Origin: Mycobacteroides immunogenum
Lineage (GTDB): Bacteria > Actinomycetota > Actinomycetes > Mycobacteriales > Mycobacteriaceae
Assembly (NCBI RefSeq): GCF_001605725.1
Contig: NZ_CP011530.1
Location: forward strand, 5,270,001 to 5,334,000
DNA: 64,000 nucleotides
Direction of reading: 5' to 3'
Positions 13,256 to 24,243 of this stretch are shown here, piece after piece. Each line of letters opens with the position of its first letter. Position 1 is the first letter of the stretch. The notes under the pieces are model-generated. The model was given only the letters and a program-made list of their open reading frames with translations, did not search any database and was not told the origin of the DNA. The translations under genes were made by a program, and so were the position numbers.

Positions 13256-13969
13256 CTAATGCGAGCAGCAGCATCCACCCTGCTGAGCCTGGGCAGACTC
13301 CTTCGCGCCCGCTGGCACCGTGCCATCGGGGCGCCAATCGAAGGGGAAGTGCTTGCTCGAGGCGCCGCGGTGCTCGTGTGACCATTCGAATCCGACGGAG
13401 TGGTCCTTCTTCACCACACCCCACGTCGCGGTCTGTCCCGGACCTACCTCCGCTCCCGGCGCGTTCACGGTGGTGACCCGGCGACTCGGGTCGGCAGTCG
13501 GACCAGTCAACGCCTCGACGCGCAGATCCACCTTGCCAGGAATCTCAGCGCTCCAACTCGCGAGATCGTCGGCCTTGGCGAAGTTGATCGGTACGTACTC
13601 GATGCCGCGTAGCTCCTCGATGAGACTTGCGAATTCGGCGGGCCAGCCACCTTCCTTACCGGTGAAGATCCGTTCGAGCGCGATGCGCTGACGGGCGTCG
13701 GCATCCTCGTCGATGTAGAACATCAACTTCATCGTCGCGTCCGGATCACCGATCCACATGTTGCCTTGAAACTCACCCTGAGCAACCACGCCCAGGCCAC
13801 TCAAATCGACATCGCCCCAATGTCCCTCACTGACATGCCACACCAGGGTGAACAGGCAGTCACCGTGAGTCGGCTCCTGCGCGAAGCTGCACGGGCACGG
13901 CAGCTTGCAACTGCACACATCGAACCAGTCACCCTTCAGGTTCCAGTCGTAGGTTTCCGTCGCTGTCAT
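13256..13969 (-). CDS. DUF1326 family protein, candidate copper-binding protein
   Basis: 237 residues from ATG 13969, chosen for the family N terminus and AAAGGAA upstream; the frame extends further but runs into the operator region. The N terminus has a dense cysteine motif, CSCKLPCPC (19-27) with Cys38, and the C terminus ends GGCCCSH (231-237), so eight or more thiols sit at the two ends of the chain, a soft-metal site in appearance. Directly upstream is a perfect TACCC-N5-GGGTA palindrome, the mycobacterial RicR copper-box consensus as I recall it. This points to copper-induced expression. The biochemical role of DUF1326 is unknown to me. Confidence 0.85.
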   Translation of the reverse strand: MTATETYDWNLKGDWFDVCSCKLPCPCSFAQEPTHGDCLFTLVWHVSEGHWGDVDLSGLGVVAQGEFQGNMWIGDPDATMKLMFYIDEDADARQRIALERIFTGKEGGWPAEFASLIEELRGIEYVPINFAKADDLASWSAEIPGKVDLRVEALTGPTADPSRRVTTVNAPGAEVGPGQTATWGVVKKDHSVGFEWSHEHRGASSKHFPFDWRPDGTVPAGAKESAQAQQGGCCCSH

Positions 13970-14110: not shown

Positions 14111-15004
14111 ATGCCCCTATCAGCCTTCGATTCCGAACCCGTCAGACAGATCTGGCAGCAGCTCGGAATTCCCGGGATCGTGGACGTGCACACCCACTTC
14201 ATGCCCAAATCCGTCATGGACAAGGTGTGGGCCTACTTCGATTCAGCAGGACCGCTGGTCGGGCGCCCCTGGCCCATCACGTATCGCGCCGAAGAGTCCC
14301 AGCGCGTCGCCACCCTGCGCGAGTTCGGTGTCCTGCGCTTCACCTCACTGGTCTATCCACACAAACCTCATATGGCCGCGTGGTTGAACCAGTGGGCCGG
14401 CCAGTTCGCGGCGCAAACCCCGGACTGCATCCATACCGCCACCTTCTACCCCGAGCCCGGGGCCGCGGAATACGTACGTGCGGCGATCGATTCGGGAGCC
14501 GGCGTCTTCAAGGTCCATATTCAGGTCGGCGCCTTCTCCCCCACCGACCCTCTGCTGGCCCCGGTGTGGGGTCTCATCGAGGAGGCCGCCGTGCCGGTGG
14601 TGATCCATTGCGGTTCTGGCCCGGCACCCGGCGATTTCACGGGCCCCGATCGAATCAGAGCGCTGCTCAAGCAGTTCCCACGACTGTGCTTGATCATCGC
14701 CCACATGGGCATGCCTGAGTACAGCGAGTTCCTCGATCTCTGCGAGCAGTATGACGAGGTGCGGCTCGACACCACCATGGCCTTCACCGCATTCTCCAAC
14801 GAAAAGGCGCCCTTCCCCGAATCCGACTATCCGCGCCTCGTCGAGCTGGGCCACAAGATCTACTTCGGCAGCGACTTCCCCAACATCCCGTACGGGTACG
14901 CCGAGGCGATCACCGCGTTGCGGGGGCTCCCCGGAATCGACGACAACTGGATGCGGGCAGTCCTCTACGGCAACGGCGCAACGCTGTTCGGCATTGACGG
15001 ATAG
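14111..15004 (+). CDS. Amidohydrolase-2 family TIM-barrel metal hydrolase
   Basis: 297 residues from ATG 14111, preceded by AGATAGG. Metal-site motifs of the ACMSD/amidohydrolase-2 group: DVHTHF (HxH) at about 26-31, FKVHIQVG, VVIHCGSG, LIIAHMGMPEYSEF, and FGSDFPNIPYG near the end (catalytic Asp). Such enzymes decarboxylate or hydrolyse cyclic or aromatic carboxylates; the substrate is not predictable here. It is divergent from DUF1326 with two copper-type operators between them. Its tail overlaps the flavin monooxygenase tail by 40 bases. Confidence 0.88.
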   Translation: MPLSAFDSEPVRQIWQQLGIPGIVDVHTHFMPKSVMDKVWAYFDSAGPLVGRPWPITYRAEESQRVATLREFGVLRFTSLVYPHKPHMAAWLNQWAGQFAAQTPDCIHTATFYPEPGAAEYVRAAIDSGAGVFKVHIQVGAFSPTDPLLAPVWGLIEEAAVPVVIHCGSGPAPGDFTGPDRIRALLKQFPRLCLIIAHMGMPEYSEFLDLCEQYDEVRLDTTMAFTAFSNEKAPFPESDYPRLVELGHKIYFGSDFPNIPYGYAEAITALRGLPGIDDNWMRAVLYGNGATLFGIDG

Positions 15005-16047
15005 CACCGGCGAGACAAGCGGTCGACGACGAAAGCAGCGTCTCGGCCCACACCCCGCAGCGTCGCCGAGGACAAGGATCGCTGCCATTCCAACCCGACG
15101 AATCCCAGACCCGGTTGCGTGGTCGACACCCCGTTGCGGTGGCTCGGGACGCCCCTGGCGTCAACCGCGCCCAAGCCTGCCAGGTAGCCGAAGTCCGGCC
15201 GATAACCCGTCGCCCAGATGACGGTATCGACAGATTCTGTGCTGCCGTCCGCCCACACCACCGAATCGCCGTCCATGCGGGTGAACATCTTTCGCCAATC
15301 CGGGCGCCCTGATTCGAGCGCTTCGCGGTACACGCCGGCGTCGAAGACCGGCGCATTCGGGCGGCGCGGCAACCATGGCCCCACCGGCGCGATATCGAGA
15401 CCCGTCCGCGAATACCAGAAATGCATGTCGAACCCCAACGGTCGTTGCGGCACCAGACGTGGATAACGGCGGCTGGCCAACGTGACCACCGCCGTTTCCG
15501 CGAGTTCGGCCGCAATCTGGACCGCAGAATTTCCCGCTCCGACCACCACCACACGTTGGCCGGCGAAAGCCCCTGCCGCGCGATACCGCGCCGCGTGCAA
15601 CTGGCCACCAGAGAACGTGTCAGCTCCAGAAACTCTTGGGATAAAAGGGCTTCCATAGGTACCCGTGGCCGCGATCAGCATCGGCGAGATAAACATGTCG
15701 CCGCCGGTCAGCACACCATAGCCATGCGTCTCCCCACGGACTCCTAGCACGCGGCAATTCGTTCGTATGTCCACGTCGAGCCGCTTCGCATAGTCGCGCA
15801 GGTACACGACGACCTCATCCCGCGACGGATAGCGATCGGGGTCGCCTGGGAACGGCGAACCCACCAGGCCGGAGTATCGTGCCGGACTGAACAGGGCGAG
15901 GCTGTCGTAGTAGTGCTGCCACGCACCACCCGGCTCGCTGCCCGCCTCTACGATAACCGGGCGTATTCCCTTGTCGACCAATGCTTTCGCAGTCGCGAGA
16001 CCCGCCTGCCCGGCACCAATGACCACGGCGTCACACATCTGCGGCAC
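14965..16047 (-). CDS. Class B-like flavin monooxygenase
   Basis: 360 residues from GTG 16047 (GGGAG five to six bases upstream); ATG 16038 (MCDAVVIG) is the alternative. FAD loop VIGAGQAGLATA near the N terminus, GGAWQHYYDSL matching the GGxW motif of YUC/BVMO-type enzymes, NADPH loop VVVGAGNSAVQIAAEL in the middle, and ATGYRPDFGYL near the C terminus. It inserts oxygen into a carbon, nitrogen or sulfur centre using NADPH. It is the last gene of the LuxE–IscU–NifS–ABC–ACP–FAAL operon, two to eleven bases after the FAAL stop, so it is likely a tailoring step for that product. Confidence 0.85.
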   Translation of the reverse strand: MPQMCDAVVIGAGQAGLATAKALVDKGIRPVIVEAGSEPGGAWQHYYDSLALFSPARYSGLVGSPFPGDPDRYPSRDEVVVYLRDYAKRLDVDIRTNCRVLGVRGETHGYGVLTGGDMFISPMLIAATGTYGSPFIPRVSGADTFSGGQLHAARYRAAGAFAGQRVVVVGAGNSAVQIAAELAETAVVTLASRRYPRLVPQRPLGFDMHFWYSRTGLDIAPVGPWLPRRPNAPVFDAGVYREALESGRPDWRKMFTRMDGDSVVWADGSTESVDTVIWATGYRPDFGYLAGLGAVDARGVPSHRNGVSTTQPGLGFVGLEWQRSLSSATLRGVGRDAAFVVDRLSRRCYPSMPNSVAPLP

Positions 16048-16048
16048 G

Positions 16049-17713
16049 TCAGTCTCCCAGCTGCCCCGCCAGATACGCCTTACGCACCGTGAGGCGTTGT
16101 CGTTTTCCGCTGGTGGTCCGGGGGATCGTACGCGCCGGCACCATGACGACGTCGTCGAGCGAGAAGCCGAACACCGCGCGGACACCACCGGTGATGCGGG
16201 TACGTAGTTCCTCGTGTTCCTCCACGGCTACCCGGGTGCCGACAACGGCGATAACCGATTCGCGGCCACGTTGATCATCTCGCAGGGAGAACACCACGGA
16301 TACGCCACCCGCACCGGACAGACCGTCAATCTCACGCTCGACGTCATAGGGCGGCAAGTTGCGCCCCCGCACGATCAGCATTTCCTTGCGTCGGCCCACG
16401 ACGAATAGTTCCCCGGCAGCCAGATAACCACGATCTCCGGTGTCGTGCCATCCGTCCTCAGGCGTGGCCACCCCACCGTCAGGATTCAGGTAGCCGAGCA
16501 TCACAGACGGTCCACTCACCTGGATATCGCCCACGGCACCATCGGGAAGCAATTCACCTGCGGGTGAAAGGATGCGTAGCCGCAGGCCGTCCACCGCCCG
16601 GCCGCAAGACACCACCAGCTGACCGTCGTCTGGATTCGCCCGCCCGAACACTCGCCCGAACGCCGTCCGGCTCAGCGGATGCGGTTGCAGTGCAATGCTT
16701 GTCGCGAGTACCGTCTCCGCCATGCCATAGCACGGCACCAGTGCGTCTGCCCGCAATCCCAGCGGGGCAAGCCGCTCGGCAACCTCGCGCATCACTGCGT
16801 AGGGAATGGGTTCGGCGCCCACGTACGCGTGACGCAGGGAGGATAAGTCCACGCCGGCAGGCATATCGGCACGACCGAGCGCGTCCGATACGGCTCGATA
16901 GGCGAATGGCGGGCCCGCCGTGTGGGTCGATCCATGATGAGACATGTGCCGTATCCAGGATGTCGGATCCCGCAGAAATCCCATCGGGGTCATCACCCCC
17001 ACCCGCAGACCGTAAAGGAGCGCGGACAACACCTGGATAAAGCCCATATCGTGATAGAACGGCAGCCAGCTGAACACCCGGTCTCGCCCACGCAATGCCC
17101 TCGTGCCGTAGGCGATTGCGCAAGAGTTATGCGCCACATTGCTGTGGGTCAACATCACTGCCTTCGGAGCGGATGTCGAGCCCGAGGTGAGTTGTATGTG
17201 GTGGATGTCGCCGGGTCCGGCCGGCGAAAGTAGCTGCCAATCAATCGGATCGGCATCAGTCAACTCGTCGTACAGCACCACGTTTGGATGCTCGACTGCC
17301 GCCGCGCCCCGCGCCTGCGTTATCACCATGACCGGTTTCAACACTGCCAGCGCGGCGTGCAGATGCGCCACTCCGGCCGATTCCGGGCGCGAGGGAGTGG
17401 GCGGAGGCGCGATGGCGCACGGTACGGCGCCCAACAACAGCACCGCCAGCAGTGTGGCCAGGTACTCTTCGTCGCTGGTGGCAATCATCGCCACCCGGTC
17501 ACCGCGCCGCAGGCCACGATTGGTCAACTCAGACGCACGAATCCGTATGGCAGTAACCATATCTGCGCCCGGCAGCGCATACAGATGGCTTCGTGAATCA
17601 TAGAAATCGATCTGTTCCAGCCCCAGGCGGAGCAGCGCCGGATAGTCGATCGCCCCCGAAACCATCGCCGGTGCGTTGGCCTCCACATGCTGACGAACCT
17701 CGGAAGCACTCAT
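16049..17713 (-). CDS. Fatty acyl-AMP ligase (FAAL-type adenylating enzyme)
   Basis: 554 residues, in the FAAL range. Nucleotide loop LTSGSTSAPKAVMLTHSN at 175-192, FSWLPFYHDMGF, YVGAEPI, YGMAETVLA, GWHDTGDRGYL, and the terminal SGKRQRLTV with the catalytic lysine. WLPFYHDMG and the TSGST loop are FAAL rather than acyl-CoA-synthetase hallmarks. It would adenylate a fatty acid and load it on the acyl carrier protein encoded just upstream (four-base overlap). FAALs feed acyl chains to polyketide or peptide synthases; none is in this operon, but NRPS genes lie 22 kb away. Confidence 0.9.
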   Translation of the reverse strand: MSASEVRQHVEANAPAMVSGAIDYPALLRLGLEQIDFYDSRSHLYALPGADMVTAIRIRASELTNRGLRRGDRVAMIATSDEEYLATLLAVLLLGAVPCAIAPPPTPSRPESAGVAHLHAALAVLKPVMVITQARGAAAVEHPNVVLYDELTDADPIDWQLLSPAGPGDIHHIQLTSGSTSAPKAVMLTHSNVAHNSCAIAYGTRALRGRDRVFSWLPFYHDMGFIQVLSALLYGLRVGVMTPMGFLRDPTSWIRHMSHHGSTHTAGPPFAYRAVSDALGRADMPAGVDLSSLRHAYVGAEPIPYAVMREVAERLAPLGLRADALVPCYGMAETVLATSIALQPHPLSRTAFGRVFGRANPDDGQLVVSCGRAVDGLRLRILSPAGELLPDGAVGDIQVSGPSVMLGYLNPDGGVATPEDGWHDTGDRGYLAAGELFVVGRRKEMLIVRGRNLPPYDVEREIDGLSGAGGVSVVFSLRDDQRGRESVIAVVGTRVAVEEHEELRTRITGGVRAVFGFSLDDVVMVPARTIPRTTSGKRQRLTVRKAYLAGQLGD

Positions 17714-18015
17714 GCCTGTTGGCGGCGTTTCGCCTTATCGCGCAGACGCTGACGAATGAACGCACCGATGTCGCCCACCACAGTGAAGGCAAATGCCTCC
17801 TCTTCCGGGATGAACACCGCGAACTGATCTTCCAATTCGTTCATCAGCGCCATCAGCACCACCGAGTCGATAGGAAGACTGAGCAGCGCAGTACCGGCCT
17901 CCACGGCAGCGAGGTCTACCTGCGCCAGATCTTCCGGCGGGAGCAGCTTGCTCAGTGCGTCACGCAGCACGCCGATGATCTCGGTGTCTTCCGGAATTAC
18001 CACGGTGCCGGTCAT
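17710..18015 (-). CDS. Acyl carrier protein
   Basis: 101 residues, acidic. LPIDSVVLMALMNELEDQF around Ser51 is the phosphopantetheine attachment site (usual D-S-L/V). Translationally coupled on both sides (four-base overlaps with the ABC ATPase and the FAAL). It is most likely the acceptor of the acyl chain activated by the adjacent FAAL. It ends RDKAKRRQQA, a basic tail unusual for carrier proteins. Confidence 0.9.
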   Translation of the reverse strand: MTGTVVIPEDTEIIGVLRDALSKLLPPEDLAQVDLAAVEAGTALLSLPIDSVVLMALMNELEDQFAVFIPEEEAFAFTVVGDIGAFIRQRLRDKAKRRQQA

Positions 18016-18725
18016 TGGCCCTCTTTCTCTAGCAGTACACCATCTTCGAGGTGCAGCACACGATCCGCGATATCTGTCAGGCGCAGATCGTGGGTCACGA
18101 TCACCACTGCTGCCCCTTGGCTTCTGGCGGCATCTGCGAGCTGCTCGGCCACCTTCTTTCCGGTGGCCGAATCCAGATTTGCCGTTGGTTCATCGGCTAG
18201 AACCAAGCCTGGGCGGGCGACCAGCGCCCGTGCCGCGGCGACGCGCTGCTTCTCGCCACCCGAGAGCGCCGGCGGGCGATGGCCGGTCCGATGAGCCAAT
18301 CCGAGCTCGGTCAGAAGTCGCCGAGCGCGGGACATCGCGTCGTCTTTACTCACCCCCGCGTAACGCAACGGCAGAGCCACATTCTCCGCACTCGTCAACG
18401 CGTTCAACAGGTTGTACTCCTGAAACAGGAATCCCAGCTTCTCCAAACGGATCCGGGCGCGTTCCCGCTCGCTCAGGTCACCCACGTTCTGGCCGCCGAT
18501 CCTGACCACACCCGCGCCCGGGGTCAGCAGCAACCCCATGACCAAAAGTGCGGTGGTCTTACCGCCACCCGAGGGGCCGACAACCAGCACCACCTCACCG
18601 GCATTGACCGTCAAGTCCAGACCCCGCAGCGCACGCACCGCCGCATCTCCGGAGCCGTACTGATGCTCGATGCCCTCGAGCTGCAGAACCGGATCCTGTG
18701 AAACATTGTTGTCAGTACTGTTCAT
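18012..18725 (-). CDS. ABC transporter ATP-binding protein (MacB/LolD type)
   Basis: 237 residues from ATG 18725 with GGAGGTGAG upstream; the frame runs on but only into the permease gene. Walker A GPSGGGKTT at 50-58, Q-loop LFQEYNLLN, signature LSGGEKQR at 154-161, Walker B GLVLADE at 173-179, H-loop VTHD. It pairs with the FtsX/MacB-type permease ending five bases upstream. Systems of this type export peptides, lipids or small molecules, or act mechanically, rather than import. Confidence 0.94.
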   Translation of the reverse strand: MNSTDNNVSQDPVLQLEGIEHQYGSGDAAVRALRGLDLTVNAGEVVLVVGPSGGGKTTALLVMGLLLTPGAGVVRIGGQNVGDLSERERARIRLEKLGFLFQEYNLLNALTSAENVALPLRYAGVSKDDAMSRARRLLTELGLAHRTGHRPPALSGGEKQRVAAARALVARPGLVLADEPTANLDSATGKKVAEQLADAARSQGAAVVIVTHDLRLTDIADRVLHLEDGVLLEKEGQ

Positions 18726-18730
18726 CGTGC

Positions 18731-19837
18731 TCACCTCCGGAACGCCTGAGCGGGATCGATCCGCGTCACCCGCCGCACCGGTATCAGTGAGCCGATGACC
18801 GCCATGACACCGGTCGCGGCGGCCATCGCGCCTAGCATTACCGGTGTCACCTCCACCGTGACGTCTCCTAGCCGGTCCTTCACCAGGAACTGCACCCCGT
18901 AGGTGATCCCGGCACCCAACAGATACCCAAGTCCGGCAATCAACGCTGCTTGGGCAATGACGGTGCGGCACAGCTGCCCTGGTCGAACGCCCAGGGCCCG
19001 CAATACTCCAAAGTCACCCATCTGCTCGGTGGTGACCGCGAGGACTGTCAAGCCCACCAGCGCCACGCCGACCAGGGCTGCGATACCGATCATCGTCTTG
19101 AGTGGGCGCCCGATCATCGAAATCACGATGGCACGACTGTTGGCGGCGAAAGTTTCCGAGGTCAGCGCATCCATTCCAGGCGCCGACTTTCGCACCGAAT
19201 CCACCACTTGATCACCGGTGTACCCGTCTGAGGGCTGAACAAGGAAGTAGGACACGCGATTTCCGGCCCTCAATAGACGCGCGGCATCCTCAAGAGAGAT
19301 AAAGGCATAGAAATTACCAACAGCGGCAGTCTGATTGGACAGCCCCACGACAGTGAAGTCGCCGTCCACGAGCTGAACCGTGTCGCCGACATGAATCTTG
19401 TTCTTCTTCGCCAGCACCCGGTCCAGCACCACCTCACGGGAACCGGCAACATTGCGCCCCTCCGAGAGCGACCACGGACCACCCACTCCGGTGGCGGTGT
19501 CATATCCCACCACGAAGTAGGCGGTGTGTGCCCCGTTATGCACGAAATCTGAAGGCAGACCGAGGATTGGGTCTGCCGACCGCACACCCGGAACCTTCAG
19601 CAGGCGGTCTTTACCGTCGCCCGGCAGCCACGACACGGCCCGGAACATCTGCGAAACGCCCGGCTGGACCACCCACACCGCACCCTTCGAGTGATCGATG
19701 TAGGTGGTCACCTGGTTGGTGGTGCCGACGAAGATGCCCGACATCACCAACACCAGAATGACCGCCACCGCCACCCCGATCACCGACAGGACGAAACGGG
19801 CGCGCTCTGCGACAAGGTTTTTGACGGCGACAATCAA
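18731..19837 (-). CDS. ABC transporter permease (FtsX/MacB type)
   Basis: 368 residues from TTG 19837, preceded by GGAGGGATGG and overlapping the cysteine desulfurase stop by four bases; no ATG/GTG fits. One N-terminal helix (FVLSVIGVAVAVILVLVM), a large extracytoplasmic MacB_PCD-like domain (about 45-235), then three helices and the FtsX C terminus with GVLRALGVRPGQL and a tail PVRRVTRIDPAQAFRR. It works with the ATPase encoded next. Its place between sulfur-transfer and acyl-activation genes suggests export of the operon's product. Confidence 0.9.
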   Translation of the reverse strand: MIVAVKNLVAERARFVLSVIGVAVAVILVLVMSGIFVGTTNQVTTYIDHSKGAVWVVQPGVSQMFRAVSWLPGDGKDRLLKVPGVRSADPILGLPSDFVHNGAHTAYFVVGYDTATGVGGPWSLSEGRNVAGSREVVLDRVLAKKNKIHVGDTVQLVDGDFTVVGLSNQTAAVGNFYAFISLEDAARLLRAGNRVSYFLVQPSDGYTGDQVVDSVRKSAPGMDALTSETFAANSRAIVISMIGRPLKTMIGIAALVGVALVGLTVLAVTTEQMGDFGVLRALGVRPGQLCRTVIAQAALIAGLGYLLGAGITYGVQFLVKDRLGDVTVEVTPVMLGAMAAATGVMAVIGSLIPVRRVTRIDPAQAFRR

Positions 19838-21024
19838 CGGGCCATCCCTCCTGCCATGGCGCGCAGTCTGCGCACCGATCGTGTGGTCACCGCGACCACG
19901 GTGTTCACATCCGCCGGTGACACGTTTGGGCCCAGAGAAAACCGGACGGTGGCACGCGCCTGTTCCTCGCTCAGCCGCATGGCCCGCAGCACGTGCGATA
20001 CCGTGTCTTCCCCAGCGTGGCAAGCAGATCCGGTGGATACGTAGATGCCATGCATGTCGAGGTCATCGGCAAGGGTGTCGGCACGAACGCCGTCGAAACG
20101 CACACTCAGAGTCTCCTCCAAGACCGGTTCGGTCACATTGAGGTGCACTCCGCCGACCGCGCGCAACCCGTCGATCAACTGCTCACGGCGATCGCGCATA
20201 CCCAGCCGGTAGCCCATCGTCACCGTGCGCGCACATGCGTCTGCTGCCGCGGCCATGCCGAGTGCCCCGGGCACGTTCTCGGTGCCCGCCCGCAGGCGGT
20301 TCTCCTGTGGTCCCCCGCGCATCACCGGCAAGAGCCGATGACCGCTGCGAACATAGAGCGCACCCACTCCCCGCGGGCCGCCGAACTTATGCGCCGATAC
20401 CGAGATCATGGTGGCGCCAACAACTGTCAGGTCAAGCTTGCCCGCGGTGTGCACCGCATCGGTGTGAAACGCAGTGCCCGACTGCCTGGCCAGGTCCGCG
20501 ATCTCCACGACTGGCTGGATGGCACCGGTCTCGTTGTTGGCGTGCATCACCGATACCAGCGCGGTATCGGGCCGCAACGCGCGGGCCACGTCGGCGGATT
20601 CGACATGCCCCGTCGGCGCGGGGTCCACGAAGGTGACCTCGACACCCAGGTCACGTAATGCGTGGGCGTTCGCCAGCACCGCCGGGTGCTCTATGGACGA
20701 GGTCACCAGGTGACCTTGAAAACCCAAGGCCGCGAAGGTCCCCCACAAGGCCAGGGTGTTCGCCTCGCTTCCACCGGAAGTCAGAACCACCTCCTCGGCA
20801 TCGGCTCCGAGCATCTGCGCCATGGTCTCGCGCGCCTCGGCCAGTGCCTCCGCGGCATCACGGCCGGCACCATGGCGGCTGGAGGGGTTGCCCACCAGCT
20901 GGTGTCCACTCAGTACCGCCTGCGCCGCACGTGGATGCAGCGGTGCGGTGGCCGCATAGTCCAGATAGATCTCGGTCGGCGTTGCCTGTGTGGATGGGTT
21001 AAGAACCTGGGAGGGTGCTGACAT
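19834..21024 (-). CDS. Cysteine desulfurase (NifS/IscS type)
   Basis: 396 residues. PLP lysine in SAHKFGGPRG (Lys213), substrate loop YLDYAATAPLHP at the N terminus, EHPAVL, HANNETGAIQP, HTDAVHTAGK, RAGTENVPG, and the catalytic cysteine in STGSACHAGED (Cys335). It removes sulfur from cysteine as a persulfide. It overlaps the IscU-like gene by 26 bases and is embedded in the LuxE/FAAL operon, away from any visible suf genes. This suggests dedicated sulfur supply to a product or a special cofactor rather than general Fe–S assembly. Confidence 0.94.
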   Translation of the reverse strand: MSAPSQVLNPSTQATPTEIYLDYAATAPLHPRAAQAVLSGHQLVGNPSSRHGAGRDAAEALAEARETMAQMLGADAEEVVLTSGGSEANTLALWGTFAALGFQGHLVTSSIEHPAVLANAHALRDLGVEVTFVDPAPTGHVESADVARALRPDTALVSVMHANNETGAIQPVVEIADLARQSGTAFHTDAVHTAGKLDLTVVGATMISVSAHKFGGPRGVGALYVRSGHRLLPVMRGGPQENRLRAGTENVPGALGMAAAADACARTVTMGYRLGMRDRREQLIDGLRAVGGVHLNVTEPVLEETLSVRFDGVRADTLADDLDMHGIYVSTGSACHAGEDTVSHVLRAMRLSEEQARATVRFSLGPNVSPADVNTVVAVTTRSVRRLRAMAGGMAR

Positions 21025-21400
21025 CTTCGTGAATTCCGTTGCGGTAGTTGTTGGCTAGACGCTGCGCTACGTCGGCACCAAGCGCCGCGACGTGCTGCTG
21101 CTCGGGAGAAAGCCCCCCAGACCACTCGGCGACCTGCGCCGCTTCTATCGCCGCTACATCGTGCACCGGCATCCCGCTGAGGCGCTCGGTGAGAATAGAA
21201 GCCACGGCCAGGGACGCCGAACACCCGTATGCCTCGAAGCCGATCCGGGCCACGGCATCGTCGCGGACCTGAGCGCTCAACAAGATCTGGTCACCACACA
21301 CCGGATTTCCGATGAAGGCGGTGACGTCGGCCTGATCCAAACGACCGGGGTTGCGCGGGTTGGTGAAGTGATCGACCACTGTGGCGCTGAAACGGGGCAC
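20999..21400 (-). CDS. IscU/SufU-like sulfur acceptor lacking the third cysteine
   Basis: 133 residues from GTG 21400. NPVCGDQ (Cys35, Asp37) and AYGCSAS (Cys60) match the first two cluster-ligand motifs of IscU. The third site, usually a cysteine near 102-107 (HCS in IscU), here reads EQQHVAALG and has none. It may accept persulfide sulfur without building a normal [2Fe-2S] cluster. It starts one base inside the LuxE-like stop codon and overlaps the cysteine desulfurase, its probable donor. Confidence 0.86.
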   Translation of the reverse strand: MPRFSATVVDHFTNPRNPGRLDQADVTAFIGNPVCGDQILLSAQVRDDAVARIGFEAYGCSASLAVASILTERLSGMPVHDVAAIEAAQVAEWSGGLSPEQQHVAALGADVAQRLANNYRNGIHEDVSTLPGS

Positions 21401-22557
21401 TAGGCGCCCAATCCTTCAGTGGAACCGGCTGCTACCAGCTCACATTCGGCGACGACTTCCTGTGAGTCAATGTACTTTTCGATACTCACCGCGCAACATC
21501 CCAGTTCGGCCCCCTGGCGGCGCCTGCGGAACTTGACGGTCTGCCCGGTACGGCCGCACGGGCAGTCACTCTCGTCCACCTCGCCGATGTCGTCGGACAG
21601 CAGGAAACCCGGATACGCGGTGTTCAACGCGTCGAGAATCGCTATCCCGCCGGTCTTTCCCGGCTCGAGTTCGACGGAGGCATCGTTGACGTCCCGGATC
21701 GAGATGTAACACCACGGCGGCACATGCTTACGCTGATGCTCACACTCGATTGCGAGCATGTTGGACTCGATCATTCCGTACATGTCGCGGATGCGGGTGC
21801 GGTCGATTCCCAGCAGCCGCTGTGCTTTCTCGTTGAAATCATCGCGACTTATCGAGTTGCCGGTGTACTGCTTCCAGCCTCCGAGCATGATGATCAGCGA
21901 GTCGGGGTCGAGCGTCAGCGGGATGTCTTCTAACTCCAGATATTTCATGAATCGCGCGATGATGAAGGGCGGCCCGATGAGATGACGGGTCATCTTCCCC
22001 TCCCAGTTCCGCAGGTGTGTCAACGCATTTTCCGGGTCAAAGGAGTAATCACGCACCACGTAGCGGTGGTCATCGAGCATCCCGGTGAGCAGGTTGAAGA
22101 TCTTTACCATGCCCATCTCGGGCACCTCGGCGGTCGATGGGCACAGGAACAGCCCAGCCCCCTGGGAGATGCCCAGGAAATCGCGGTAACCGCCGAAGAT
22201 TCCCACCGACGCCCTGGTCACCGTGGTGGAGTCGCGTCGTGCCACTGAGGGCACACCACTGGTGCCGGTGGACCGGATCTCGATCTCGACGTCCTCAAGC
22301 CCGCAGGTCATGAGTACGTGCGCCCCAGCCTGTTTGAACATGCTGACGGGAAGTAGGGGCACACGGCGCAGGTCAGCGCGATCCCGAATATCGCCCGGAG
22401 TCAGGCCGATGGCGTCGCACTGGGCCCGATAGAAGCCATTGCGTTCGAAGTGCAGCGCGAAGGACTCGCGCACCACATCGGTAAGCGACCGCCGCCAGTC
22501 CTCCCGTGTCACCCGGAGGGCTTCCCCCGGCATGCCGAGCATGGTGACCAAGTCCAC
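21400..22557 (-). CDS. LuxE-like acyl-protein synthetase
   Basis: 385 residues from GTG 22557, with AAAGGAGATATGCA directly upstream. An adenylating-enzyme fold with loop RSTGTSGVPSVARR (95-108), DMYGMIESN and the cysteine knuckle CPCGRTGQ near 336. LuxE enzymes activate a fatty acid as acyl-AMP and pass it to a cysteine; no LuxC reductase or luciferase is present. It is the first gene of the eight-gene operon; the next genes are an IscU-like protein and cysteine desulfurase. One reading is that the acyl adenylate meets a sulfur donor here. That is a hypothesis. Confidence 0.85.
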   Translation of the reverse strand: MDLVTMLGMPGEALRVTREDWRRSLTDVVRESFALHFERNGFYRAQCDAIGLTPGDIRDRADLRRVPLLPVSMFKQAGAHVLMTCGLEDVEIEIRSTGTSGVPSVARRDSTTVTRASVGIFGGYRDFLGISQGAGLFLCPSTAEVPEMGMVKIFNLLTGMLDDHRYVVRDYSFDPENALTHLRNWEGKMTRHLIGPPFIIARFMKYLELEDIPLTLDPDSLIIMLGGWKQYTGNSISRDDFNEKAQRLLGIDRTRIRDMYGMIESNMLAIECEHQRKHVPPWCYISIRDVNDASVELEPGKTGGIAILDALNTAYPGFLLSDDIGEVDESDCPCGRTGQTVKFRRRRQGAELGCCAVSIEKYIDSQEVVAECELVAAGSTEGLGA

Positions 22558-22677
22558 TGCATATCTCCTTTGACTGCCTAGCCCACACAGGGCACCGGTG
22601 GAGTGGTCGAATCATCGTGAGAAAAAGTTCCCGCAGATCGTCAAGTGTTCCCGCGGCGGTATGGCAGAGTCCGCCCC

Positions 22678-24243
22678 ATGGCTGATGAACCGTTGCGGGC
22701 CGAGCATGCCGAGCTACTAACGAGACGTGCGCTCACCGAGGATGCTGCCCGCCCGGACGCGGTTGCACGCCGCCATCAGGCCGGCGGTCGCACCGCCCGT
22801 GAAAACATCGCCGATCTGGTGGACGCCGGATCATTCGTGGAATACGGGCGATTCGCCATCGCCGCGCAACGTGGCCGCCGCGAACTCGCCGACTTGATCG
22901 CCCGCACACCTGCGGACGGTCTGGTGGCCGGTACCGCAAGAATCAACGGCCACCTGTTCGGCGCCGAGCGCAGCGCCTGCGCCGTGCTGTCCTACGACTA
23001 CACCGTGTTGGCGGGAACCCAAGGTGCGCTCGGGCACCATAAGAAGGACCGGCTCTTCGATCTCATCGAGCGCATGAAGCTCCCGACCGTGTTCTTCGCC
23101 GAGGGTGGTGGGGGCAGGCCTGGCGATACCGACTACCCCGTGGTCTCGATGCTCGACGTACGCGCTTTCAAGTTGTGGGCCGCACTATCGGGGGTGGTGC
23201 CGCGGATCTCTGTGGTCAAAGGCCGATGCTTCGCGGGCAATGCGGTGATCGCGGGCTGCTCCGATCTGATCGTGGCCACCAAAGACACCTCGATCGGCAT
23301 GGGCGGTCCCGCCATGATCGCCGGCGGCGGTCTCGGTGAGGTGCATCCCGATGACGTGGGACCCCTAGCCGTCCAGTCGCCGAACGGTGTGGTCGATGTG
23401 GTCGTTGACGACGAGGAGGAGGCGGTCGCGGTATCCAAACGACTGATCGGCTATTTCCAGGGCACGACAGAGCCTGGCGCCGCGGCAGACCAAACAACCT
23501 TGCGGACAATGATTCCCGAACGTGCCCGGCGGGCATACCCGGTGGGACCCATCATCGAAACGCTCGCCGACACCGGCTCGACGATGTTTTTGCGGGAGAA
23601 ATTCGCACCCGAGATGGTGACCGCACTCGCACGCATCGAGGGCAGAGCGGTCGGCATCCTCGCGAACAATTCGATGGTGATGGCCGGGGCCATCACCGCC
23701 GCCGCGTCCGACAAGGCCGCCCGGTTCTTACAACTGTGCGATGCCTTTGGCCTTCCGGTGCTATCACTGGTCGATTGCCCCGGTTACATGGTGGGCCCGG
23801 CCGCGGAGGCCGACGCGCTGGTTCGGCGCGCCTCTCGCATGCTCGTCGCCGGTGCCGCGCTGCGTGTACCGCTGGTCGCCGTCATTCTGCGCCGCGGCTA
23901 TGGCCTTGGCGCACAAGCGATGACCGGCGGCAGCCTGCACGAGCCGCTGCTTACGGTGGCATGGCCGAGCGCACATTTGGGCCCCATGGGCCTGGAAGGT
24001 GCGGTGCGTCTGGGACTCCGAAAGGAACTCGAGGCCATTGCCGACACGGCCGCACGGGAGCAGGCGGTTCGTCAGGCCACCGCCGCCGCCCAAGAGAATG
24101 CCAAGGCACTCAACGCTGCTCAGATCTTTGAGATCGACGATGTGATCGACCCGGCGGAGACACGCGCGCTGATCGCGTCCACTTTTGCCGCTGCCCTGCG
24201 CGAACCACTGCCACCCAGGCGCACCGTGGTGGACACCTGGTAG
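22678..24243 (+). CDS. Acyl-CoA carboxylase, carboxyltransferase (beta) subunit
   Basis: 521 residues from ATG 22678. Biotin-carboxyltransferase fold in two crotonase-like halves: ARENIADLVDAGSFVEYGRFA, DYTVLAGTQGALGHHKKDRL, FAEGGGGRPGD, GGPAMIAGGGLGEVHPDDVGP, then NNSMVMAGAITAAASDKAARFLQLCDAFGLP and VDCPGYMVGP. It transfers carboxyl from biotin to an acyl-CoA. No alpha or biotin subunit is adjacent. It is divergent from the LuxE-led operon (120 bases between), so it may share regulation, but a role in that pathway is not shown. Confidence 0.92.
   Translation: MADEPLRAEHAELLTRRALTEDAARPDAVARRHQAGGRTARENIADLVDAGSFVEYGRFAIAAQRGRRELADLIARTPADGLVAGTARINGHLFGAERSACAVLSYDYTVLAGTQGALGHHKKDRLFDLIERMKLPTVFFAEGGGGRPGDTDYPVVSMLDVRAFKLWAALSGVVPRISVVKGRCFAGNAVIAGCSDLIVATKDTSIGMGGPAMIAGGGLGEVHPDDVGPLAVQSPNGVVDVVVDDEEEAVAVSKRLIGYFQGTTEPGAAADQTTLRTMIPERARRAYPVGPIIETLADTGSTMFLREKFAPEMVTALARIEGRAVGILANNSMVMAGAITAAASDKAARFLQLCDAFGLPVLSLVDCPGYMVGPAAEADALVRRASRMLVAGAALRVPLVAVILRRGYGLGAQAMTGGSLHEPLLTVAWPSAHLGPMGLEGAVRLGLRKELEAIADTAAREQAVRQATAAAQENAKALNAAQIFEIDDVIDPAETRALIASTFAAALREPLPPRRTVVDTW

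Follow-up and report, generated by a model that had tools for sequence, protein, structure and literature searches.

What does a bacterium make with an operon in which genes for sulfur mobilization stand beside genes for two acyl-adenylating enzymes? The question is posed by a 64,000-nucleotide stretch of the Mycobacteroides immunogenum genome (contig NZ_CP011530.1, positions 5,270,001 to 5,334,000; hereafter the window, at 5.27-5.33 Mb of a genome that is one contig of 5.57 Mb). Between window positions 14965 and 22557 the minus strand encodes, in order, a LuxE-type acyl-adenylating enzyme, an IscU-like protein, a NifS-type cysteine desulfurase, the permease and ATPase of an ATP-binding cassette (ABC) exporter, an acyl carrier protein (ACP), a fatty acyl-AMP ligase-like enzyme (FAAL) and a flavin monooxygenase-like oxidoreductase (FMO). 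All eight genes are present, and gene calls and Pfam bear out the order, with junctions from a 26-base overlap to small gaps, given in a preliminary description of this DNA. The answer favoured here, for which the chances appear about evenly balanced, is that the operon represents a cassette, spread laterally, for making and exporting an acyl metabolite that contains sulfur, cysteine-derived persulfide meeting an adenylate-activated carboxylate to give a thioacid-type product.

A pattern scan with the window LuxE across one genome per species (84,980 genomes) returned 37 loci, and in 26 of them the LuxE, IscU and NifS genes are contiguous and co-directional; the other 11 comprise ten loci of Arthrobacter and Pseudarthrobacter and one of M. 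simulans (L016). Where the contig of one of these 26 loci reaches far enough, ACP and FAAL genes are found as well (19 of 19). Because the gene order recurs in relatives, the operon is not a chance neighbourhood. The preliminary description had proposed a search for co-occurrence of LuxE, IscU, NifS and FAAL, with unlinked homologues as the finding that would tell against it, and the 26 contiguous trios come down on the side of linkage. Co-occurrence extends beyond the Actinomycetota: two regions of Priestia plasmids (Bacillota) carry together genes for a carboxymuconolactone-decarboxylase-family protein, FAAL, a flavin adenine dinucleotide (FAD) oxidoreductase, ACP, LuxE, IscU and NifS, and a LuxE with 44% identity to that of the window was found on 14 Priestia plasmids. 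(On the Priestia KF18 plasmid the FAAL gene is annotated as two overlapping pieces, L053:8778-10543; it is intact in L090.) The hosts of the cassette are Mycobacteriaceae, Streptomyces palmae, S. lateritius, Actinokineospora, Mangrovihabitans and metagenome-assembled genomes (MAGs) of Kineosporiaceae and, in the Chloroflexota, Herpetosiphonaceae; the closest relatives found are Mycobacteroides-type genomes, whose LuxE proteins are 89-93% identical.

This LuxE type is rare. Counts that include the own or centre genome came to 2 of 397 genomes in a sample of the order, 25 of 396 in the genus, 3 of 396 in the phylum, 1 of 301 in Chloroflexota and 3 of 297 in Streptomycetaceae, and a few of the matches in the phylum, Streptomycetaceae and genus samples are Arthrobacter-like, distant, partial or degenerate. 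At the thresholds applied, LuxE relatives numbered 348 in one protein search and 446 in another, and among the 120 listed from each are proteins of Lysinibacillus, Geobacillus, Paenibacillus and Chloroflexi. Viral contigs gave 29 pattern matches, with no relative among them by tblastn. In the LuxE tree the Mycobacteriaceae form one well-supported group except for M. llatzerense, whose LuxE groups with that of Actinokineospora at modest support. Across 21 loci, the distances for the five core proteins correlate with one another at 0.91-0.97, values that vertical descent alone could yield, and the GC content of the operon (0.634) is like that of the window (0.630). Two loci in which LuxE and NifS lie some 7 kb or less from an ATPase match (L137, L138) were excluded from the totals, having neither an IscU match nor the LuxE C-terminus, and are probably degenerate. 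Distant LuxE copies occur at L056, L059 and L139.

The LuxE-type protein of the window falls within the Pfam LuxE family (137 bits against a cut-off of 24.9) and scores 149.7 bits with the NCBIfam LuxE model, whose cut-off is 550. It aligns over residues 13-359 with the LuxE chain of 7xc6, and its Cys355, invariant in 14 aligned rows, falls opposite residue 364 of that chain, which we take to be the acyl-carrying cysteine. Directly before it lies Cys354, the two forming a vicinal pair in a GCCA motif. Among the homologues listed from the two protein searches, 112 of 120 in the first and 119 of 120 in the second have Cys354; the eight in the first list that lack it have Asn, His or Asp at that position, and those of the eight that are named come from Arthrobacter and one Actinomycetota MAG. 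In the ten Arthrobacter-type LuxE loci no IscU gene and no adjacent NifS gene was found, and by this comparison of sequences Cys354 appears to go together with the sulfur genes. Seven of these ten loci (L026, L027, L029, L030, L032, L033, L035) share a nonribosomal peptide synthetase (NRPS)-type operon, in which LuxE, with a GxCP motif, lies beside PALP, carrier/NRPS-like and ornithine-cyclodeaminase-family genes and, in some, TauD; in L029, the one of the seven run through Pfam, the genes are PALP, carrier/NRPS-like, TauD, ornithine-cyclodeaminase-family and LuxE.

Likeness to the LuxCDE system, in family membership, in the alignment to 7xc6 and in the kept residue-364 cysteine, raises the very unlikely alternative that LuxE is a true acyl-protein synthetase, acylating IscU, ACP or an unlinked partner, with an acyl-protein as the result, or an aldehyde if an unlinked reductase takes part. 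Possible acceptors are co-encoded. However, neither Pfam nor NCBIfam recognizes a LuxC-type reductase among the eight window genes, which therefore do not make up a Lux fatty acid reductase, and the LuxE match that does adjoin an acyl-CoA reductase is of a distant type (23.6% identity). Such a synthetase would also leave unexplained the linkage to NifS and IscU, a linkage that, together with the extra adjacent Cys354, sets the operon LuxE apart from LuxCDE.

The operon NifS has the pyridoxal phosphate lysine (Lys213) and the mobile-loop cysteine (Cys335) of NifS/IscS desulfurases, and the catalytic cysteine was seen in 27 of 28 members, the remaining one (L034) being cut by the contig end. The IscU-like protein, which matches the NCBIfam IscU, NifU and SufU models below cut-off, keeps Cys35, Asp37, Cys60 and His103 and has Val104 where chain C of 4eb5 has the third ligand cysteine; Cys35 and Cys60 are its only cysteines, so that the three ligand cysteines of an iron-sulfur (Fe-S) scaffold are not all present. 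Valine replaces the third cysteine in 26 of 28 IscU members, the residue being kept in L025 and Priestia. Its loss from the actinobacterial IscU argues against Fe-S scaffolding, and, since a separate NifU_N gene is present in the window's genome and in 8 of 8 host genomes tested, the operon IscU is an extra copy, free for another task.

A distinctly unlikely alternative has NifS and IscU building a cluster for a pathway oxidoreductase, for example the U32-family protein encoded in five Streptomyces-type loci, with no sulfur in the product. NifS and IscU do resemble an ISC/NIF relay, in that their best matches are Archaeoglobus IscS and IscU chains (4eb5 is among the top matches of both), and the third cysteine kept in L025 and Priestia would suit cluster assembly there. 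Yet the actinobacterial operon IscU differs from that relay both in the missing ligand and in its linkage to acyl activation. Because of the lost cysteine, the lack of a recognizable Fe-S client among the eight window genes and the separate NifU_N gene in all eight host genomes, an Fe-S role for the operon NifS and IscU appears less likely.

In the sulfur-delivery route preferred here, NifS would take sulfur from cysteine and the IscU-like protein would carry it as a persulfide, and LuxE would activate a carboxylate as acyl-AMP, perhaps then as acyl-S-Cys355. The persulfide would attack the LuxE-activated acyl group, and the Cys354/Cys355 pair would resolve the S-S bond to leave a thioacid-type acyl group (R-CO-SH or a derivative). 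FAAL and ACP would supply or hold an acyl chain. A flavoenzyme may oxidise the product (FMO in the window and Priestia; an acyl-CoA-dehydrogenase-like protein, in some cases with a flavin reductase, in Streptomyces-type loci), the ABC exporter would release it, and in mycobacteria it may bind copper. The preliminary description had suggested an acyl-derived, possibly sulfur-containing product, and the conservation of the active sites fits delivery of sulfur to an activated acyl group; the thiocarboxylate itself we infer.

Several observations weigh against this reading. The third cysteine is the persulfide acceptor of canonical IscU, and its loss in 26 of 28 members weakens the persulfide-carrier model as well as the Fe-S one. 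The structure model of LuxE has a mean predicted local distance difference test (pLDDT) score of 64, lowest (below 50) at residues 351-385, which include the cysteine pair; the best Foldseek matches of this model, PaaK-type AMP ligases with a template modelling (TM) score of about 0.4, support the superfamily only. A one-substrate scheme leaves the two acyl-activating enzymes unexplained, and two roles would be needed. The eight-gene set put forward in the preliminary description as a unit holds in part: the trio linkage recurs, but FMO is found in four of ten Mycobacteroides-type loci (the window, L003, L006, L008), so that the conserved unit there is one of seven genes. Two mycobacterial loci fetched later, outside the 37 (L107, L134), have the trio and exporter genes with no ACP or FAAL match nearby, and ACP-FAAL is therefore not strictly tied to the trio.

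No description of the LuxE-IscU-NifS-ACP-FAAL set was found among the open-licence papers that the searches listed, in keeping with the preliminary description, which knew of no pathway with these genes. The main threat to novelty is the sulfenicin (acylsulfenic acid) pathway, probably the closest in chemistry: in it a thiocarboxylic acid is reportedly oxidised on sulfur by a flavoenzyme. The cassette is classed here with thioacid-type or metallophore gene clusters.

The serine motif of ACP is present in 21 of 21 loci. Among NCBIfam models FAAL scores best with 'fatty acyl-AMP ligase' (PRK09192), without reaching the cut-off, and its best PDB match is 3pbk, a fatty acyl-adenylate ligase. The solved structures nearest to the window FMO are 4usq, 4usr and 4c5o/4a9w, the last presumably a sulfide-oxidising enzyme, and a Priestia flavoprotein is related to the FMO at 32% identity. 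Gene clusters of the five Streptomyces-type loci (L021-L024, L036) have a U32-family and an acyl-CoA-dehydrogenase-like gene in place of FMO (Pfam was run on L023 and, for the dehydrogenase, L024), and three of the five (L021-L023) have a flavin reductase gene. ABC permease and ATPase genes occur in mycobacterial loci and L024, an MFS gene lies near the operon in L012, L021, L022, L023 and L036, and no exporter was identified in L025. A penicillinase-repressor/M48-peptidase pair lies just upstream of LuxE at L023:8495-9868 (Pfam), with equivalents in L022 and L024 by gene clusters, and a peroxiredoxin gene lies in or beside the operon in M. persicum L010, L107 and L134.

The company of FAAL, ACP and the dehydrogenase-like gene in the five Streptomyces-type loci would also suit a different, unlikely chemistry, in which sulfur sits on the carbon chain and not on the carboxyl: addition of a thiol or persulfide to an enoyl-ACP derived from FAAL-loaded acyl-ACP would give a mercapto acid, and a second acid would be activated by LuxE for S- or N-acylation. 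The mycobacterial nrp operon, taken up below, offers a parallel, its FadD10 ligase serving beta-isocyano acyl chains (PMC9600254). The window operon, however, has no dehydrogenase gene, and L107 and L134 carry the trio without FAAL and ACP beside it. The Streptomyces-type version also resembles the cluster for the paulic acid isothiocyanate of paulomycin, which, in the portion of the text used, has an acyl-CoA synthase, ACP, acyl-CoA dehydrogenase and cysteine desulfurase (PMC4425429). This resemblance holds out the faint prospect of a route through desaturation of an aminoacyl-ACP, with an isothiocyanate or thioamide-like group as the final place of the cysteine-derived sulfur; but in that same portion sulfur transfer is by a ThiF-like enzyme and LuxE and IscU go unnamed (PMC4425429), and the window operon has neither a ThiF-like nor a dehydrogenase gene.

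A possible role for a thioacid-type product is suggested by what lies beside the cassette in some relatives, in gene classes chosen after the neighbourhoods had been seen. Twelve Mycobacterium-type loci have enough upstream sequence (L011, L020, L034 and L038 were dropped as too short), and in eight of them (L009, L010, L013, L014, L015, L016, L107, L134) a CtaG gene lies within 10 kb of LuxE. In six of these eight (not L010 or L015) there are also genes for an HMA-type chaperone and a CPC-motif P1B ATPase. A DUF5134 gene is present in seven (as a fragment in L107) and absent from L134; L012, L017, L018 and L019 have none of the copper-block genes near LuxE. In 2 of 10 Mycobacteroides-type loci (L028, L144) a different pair of HMA-type chaperone and P1B ATPase genes begins about 1 kb beyond the FAAL end of the operon, the CPC motif being seen in the L028 ATPase and the L144 ATPase being truncated by the limits of the fetched stretch. 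The window's own operon has no adjacent copper-homeostasis gene; its genome has six E1-E2 ATPase and three CtaG genes, and about 3.3% of positions lie within 10 kb of one. Since the copper-linked loci are related to each other, the independent events may number as few as two. A general association of the cassette with metal genes was considered and not upheld in the neighbourhoods of Actinokineospora (whose P-type ATPase has an SPC motif, not CPC), Streptomyces (where the neighbours tested were an ArsR-type regulator and a cation-efflux gene), Priestia and Chloroflexota; no copper genes were found in the Priestia region or among the examined neighbours of the Chloroflexota locus.

The nrp cluster of M. 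tuberculosis and M. marinum produces a diisonitrile chalkophore, and growth at low copper requires ppe1 (PMC9600254); sigC induction raises ctpB and nrp (PMC7924339). When the L014 CtaG was sought in 148 genomes, 20 regions were fetched out of 30 new loci, ten being left out, some on short contigs. The copper block stands beside an nrp-type operon in three of the 20 (L106 and L110, next to DUF5134, and L105, after one or two further genes), beside a LuxE operon in two (L107, and L108, which is the L016 locus again) and with neither in 15, so that the block is common without the cassette; in 30 short CtaG loci LuxE was seen in two. Pfam identified PPE and TauD genes in L106 and, in L105, genes of the acyl-AMP ligase, ACP and NRPS types; L110 was assigned to the nrp type by sequence likeness.

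The cassette and the ppe1-nrp chalkophore operon are thus alike in having an adenylate-forming enzyme and an ACP and, in some Mycobacterium genomes, in their place beside CtaG, DUF5134, HMA and P1B ATPase genes. They differ in that the window operon has sulfur genes instead, is not beside the copper block and, with no NRPS and no TauD-type gene among its eight, is not of the nrp type. Judged by genomic position, the cassette appears to take, in some mycobacteria, the place of the isonitrile chalkophore operon. A sulfur-based copper metallophore is a plausible product. The fuller proposal, offered tentatively and with a good chance of being wrong, is a sulfur-ligand 'thio-chalkophore', an exported thioacid-type acid or lipid with the place and role of the isonitrile chalkophore in some mycobacteria, which would be made by a new acyl-thiolation module of vicinal-cysteine LuxE, dedicated NifS and an IscU without the third ligand cysteine.

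Some further features of these neighbourhoods may be recorded. In M. simulans (L016:9896-11988) LuxE and a piece of FAAL are all that is left of the decayed operon, which still adjoins the copper block. In nine Mycobacterium-type loci the gene directly upstream of LuxE, on the same strand, encodes a Gly-rich, PGRS-like protein that matches no Pfam family and whose C-terminus is conserved and rich in Cys and Met (L014:8068-9912, with equivalents in L009, L011, L012, L013, L015, L017, L019 and L034). Beside the operon at L134:3546-4716 are look-alikes, by eye, of DUF302, CsoR-family and carboxymuconolactone-decarboxylase-family genes.

The features of the window operon are collected in the table below. 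Refined starts were assigned to the permease (19837, TTG), ATPase (18725, ATG) and FMO (16038, ATG) genes, and the LuxE gene has a GTG start with AAAGGAG upstream. The IscU and NifS genes overlap by exactly 26 bases and LuxE and IscU by one; the NifS/permease, ATPase/ACP and ACP/FAAL overlaps are of four bases, and gaps of 5 and 10 bases separate permease from ATPase and FAAL from FMO. In the divergent intergenic region GGGAAC and CGAC are kept in 8 of 8 aligned Mycobacteroides-type sequences, and the block is a possible promoter of the extracytoplasmic-function (ECF) sigma type. Across this region lies a carboxyltransferase-like gene (22645-24243, plus strand), 87 bp from LuxE, which is also a neighbour in the other nine Mycobacteroides-type loci, although L004 has just a short fragment of it. 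Downstream, two genes from the operon, is a DUF1326 gene (13256-13969, minus strand) whose product has CSCKLPCPC near the start and GGCCCSH in the tail; this gene is also found beside the operon in L003, L005, L006, L008 and L146.

Table. Genes and divergent region of the sulfur and acyl-activation operon (window positions)
Feature	Position	Strand	Evidence or remark
LuxE-type acyl-adenylating enzyme, 385 aa	21400..22557	-	Pfam LuxE 1e-39
IscU/NifU_N-like protein, 133 aa	20999..21400	-	Pfam NifU_N 4.8e-27
NifS/IscS-type cysteine desulfurase, 396 aa	19834..21024	-	Pfam Aminotran_5 1.7e-62
MacB/FtsX-type ABC permease, 368 aa	18731..19837	-	Pfam MacB_PCD and FtsX
ABC ATPase, 237 aa	18012..18725	-	Pfam ABC_tran; nearest NCBIfam models DevA and LolD, below cut-offs
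Acyl carrier protein (ACP), 101 aa	17710..18015	-	Pfam PP-binding; Ser51 in LPIDS motif
Fatty acyl-AMP ligase-like enzyme (FAAL), 554 aa	16049..17713	-	Pfam AMP-binding
Flavin monooxygenase-like oxidoreductase (FMO), 357 aa, optional	14965..16038	-	Pfam Pyr_redox_3/FMO-like
Divergent intergenic region, 87 bp	22558..22644	-	Conserved block with GGGAAC (22627-22632) and CGAC (22606-22609)

The metal context in relatives and the loss of the third IscU cysteine are new beyond the preliminary description. In three phyla the module appears to couple LuxE-type acyl activation to sulfur-relay proteins known from primary metabolism, and GCCA provides a short sequence signature by which the LuxE of the module can be searched for. 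Even without a copper role, the cassette would offer a testable route to thioacid-type natural products, for example in Priestia megaterium, an organism that is easily obtained; if its product binds copper as a ligand, scarcity of the metal would be met in some mycobacteria by a second means, based on sulfur.

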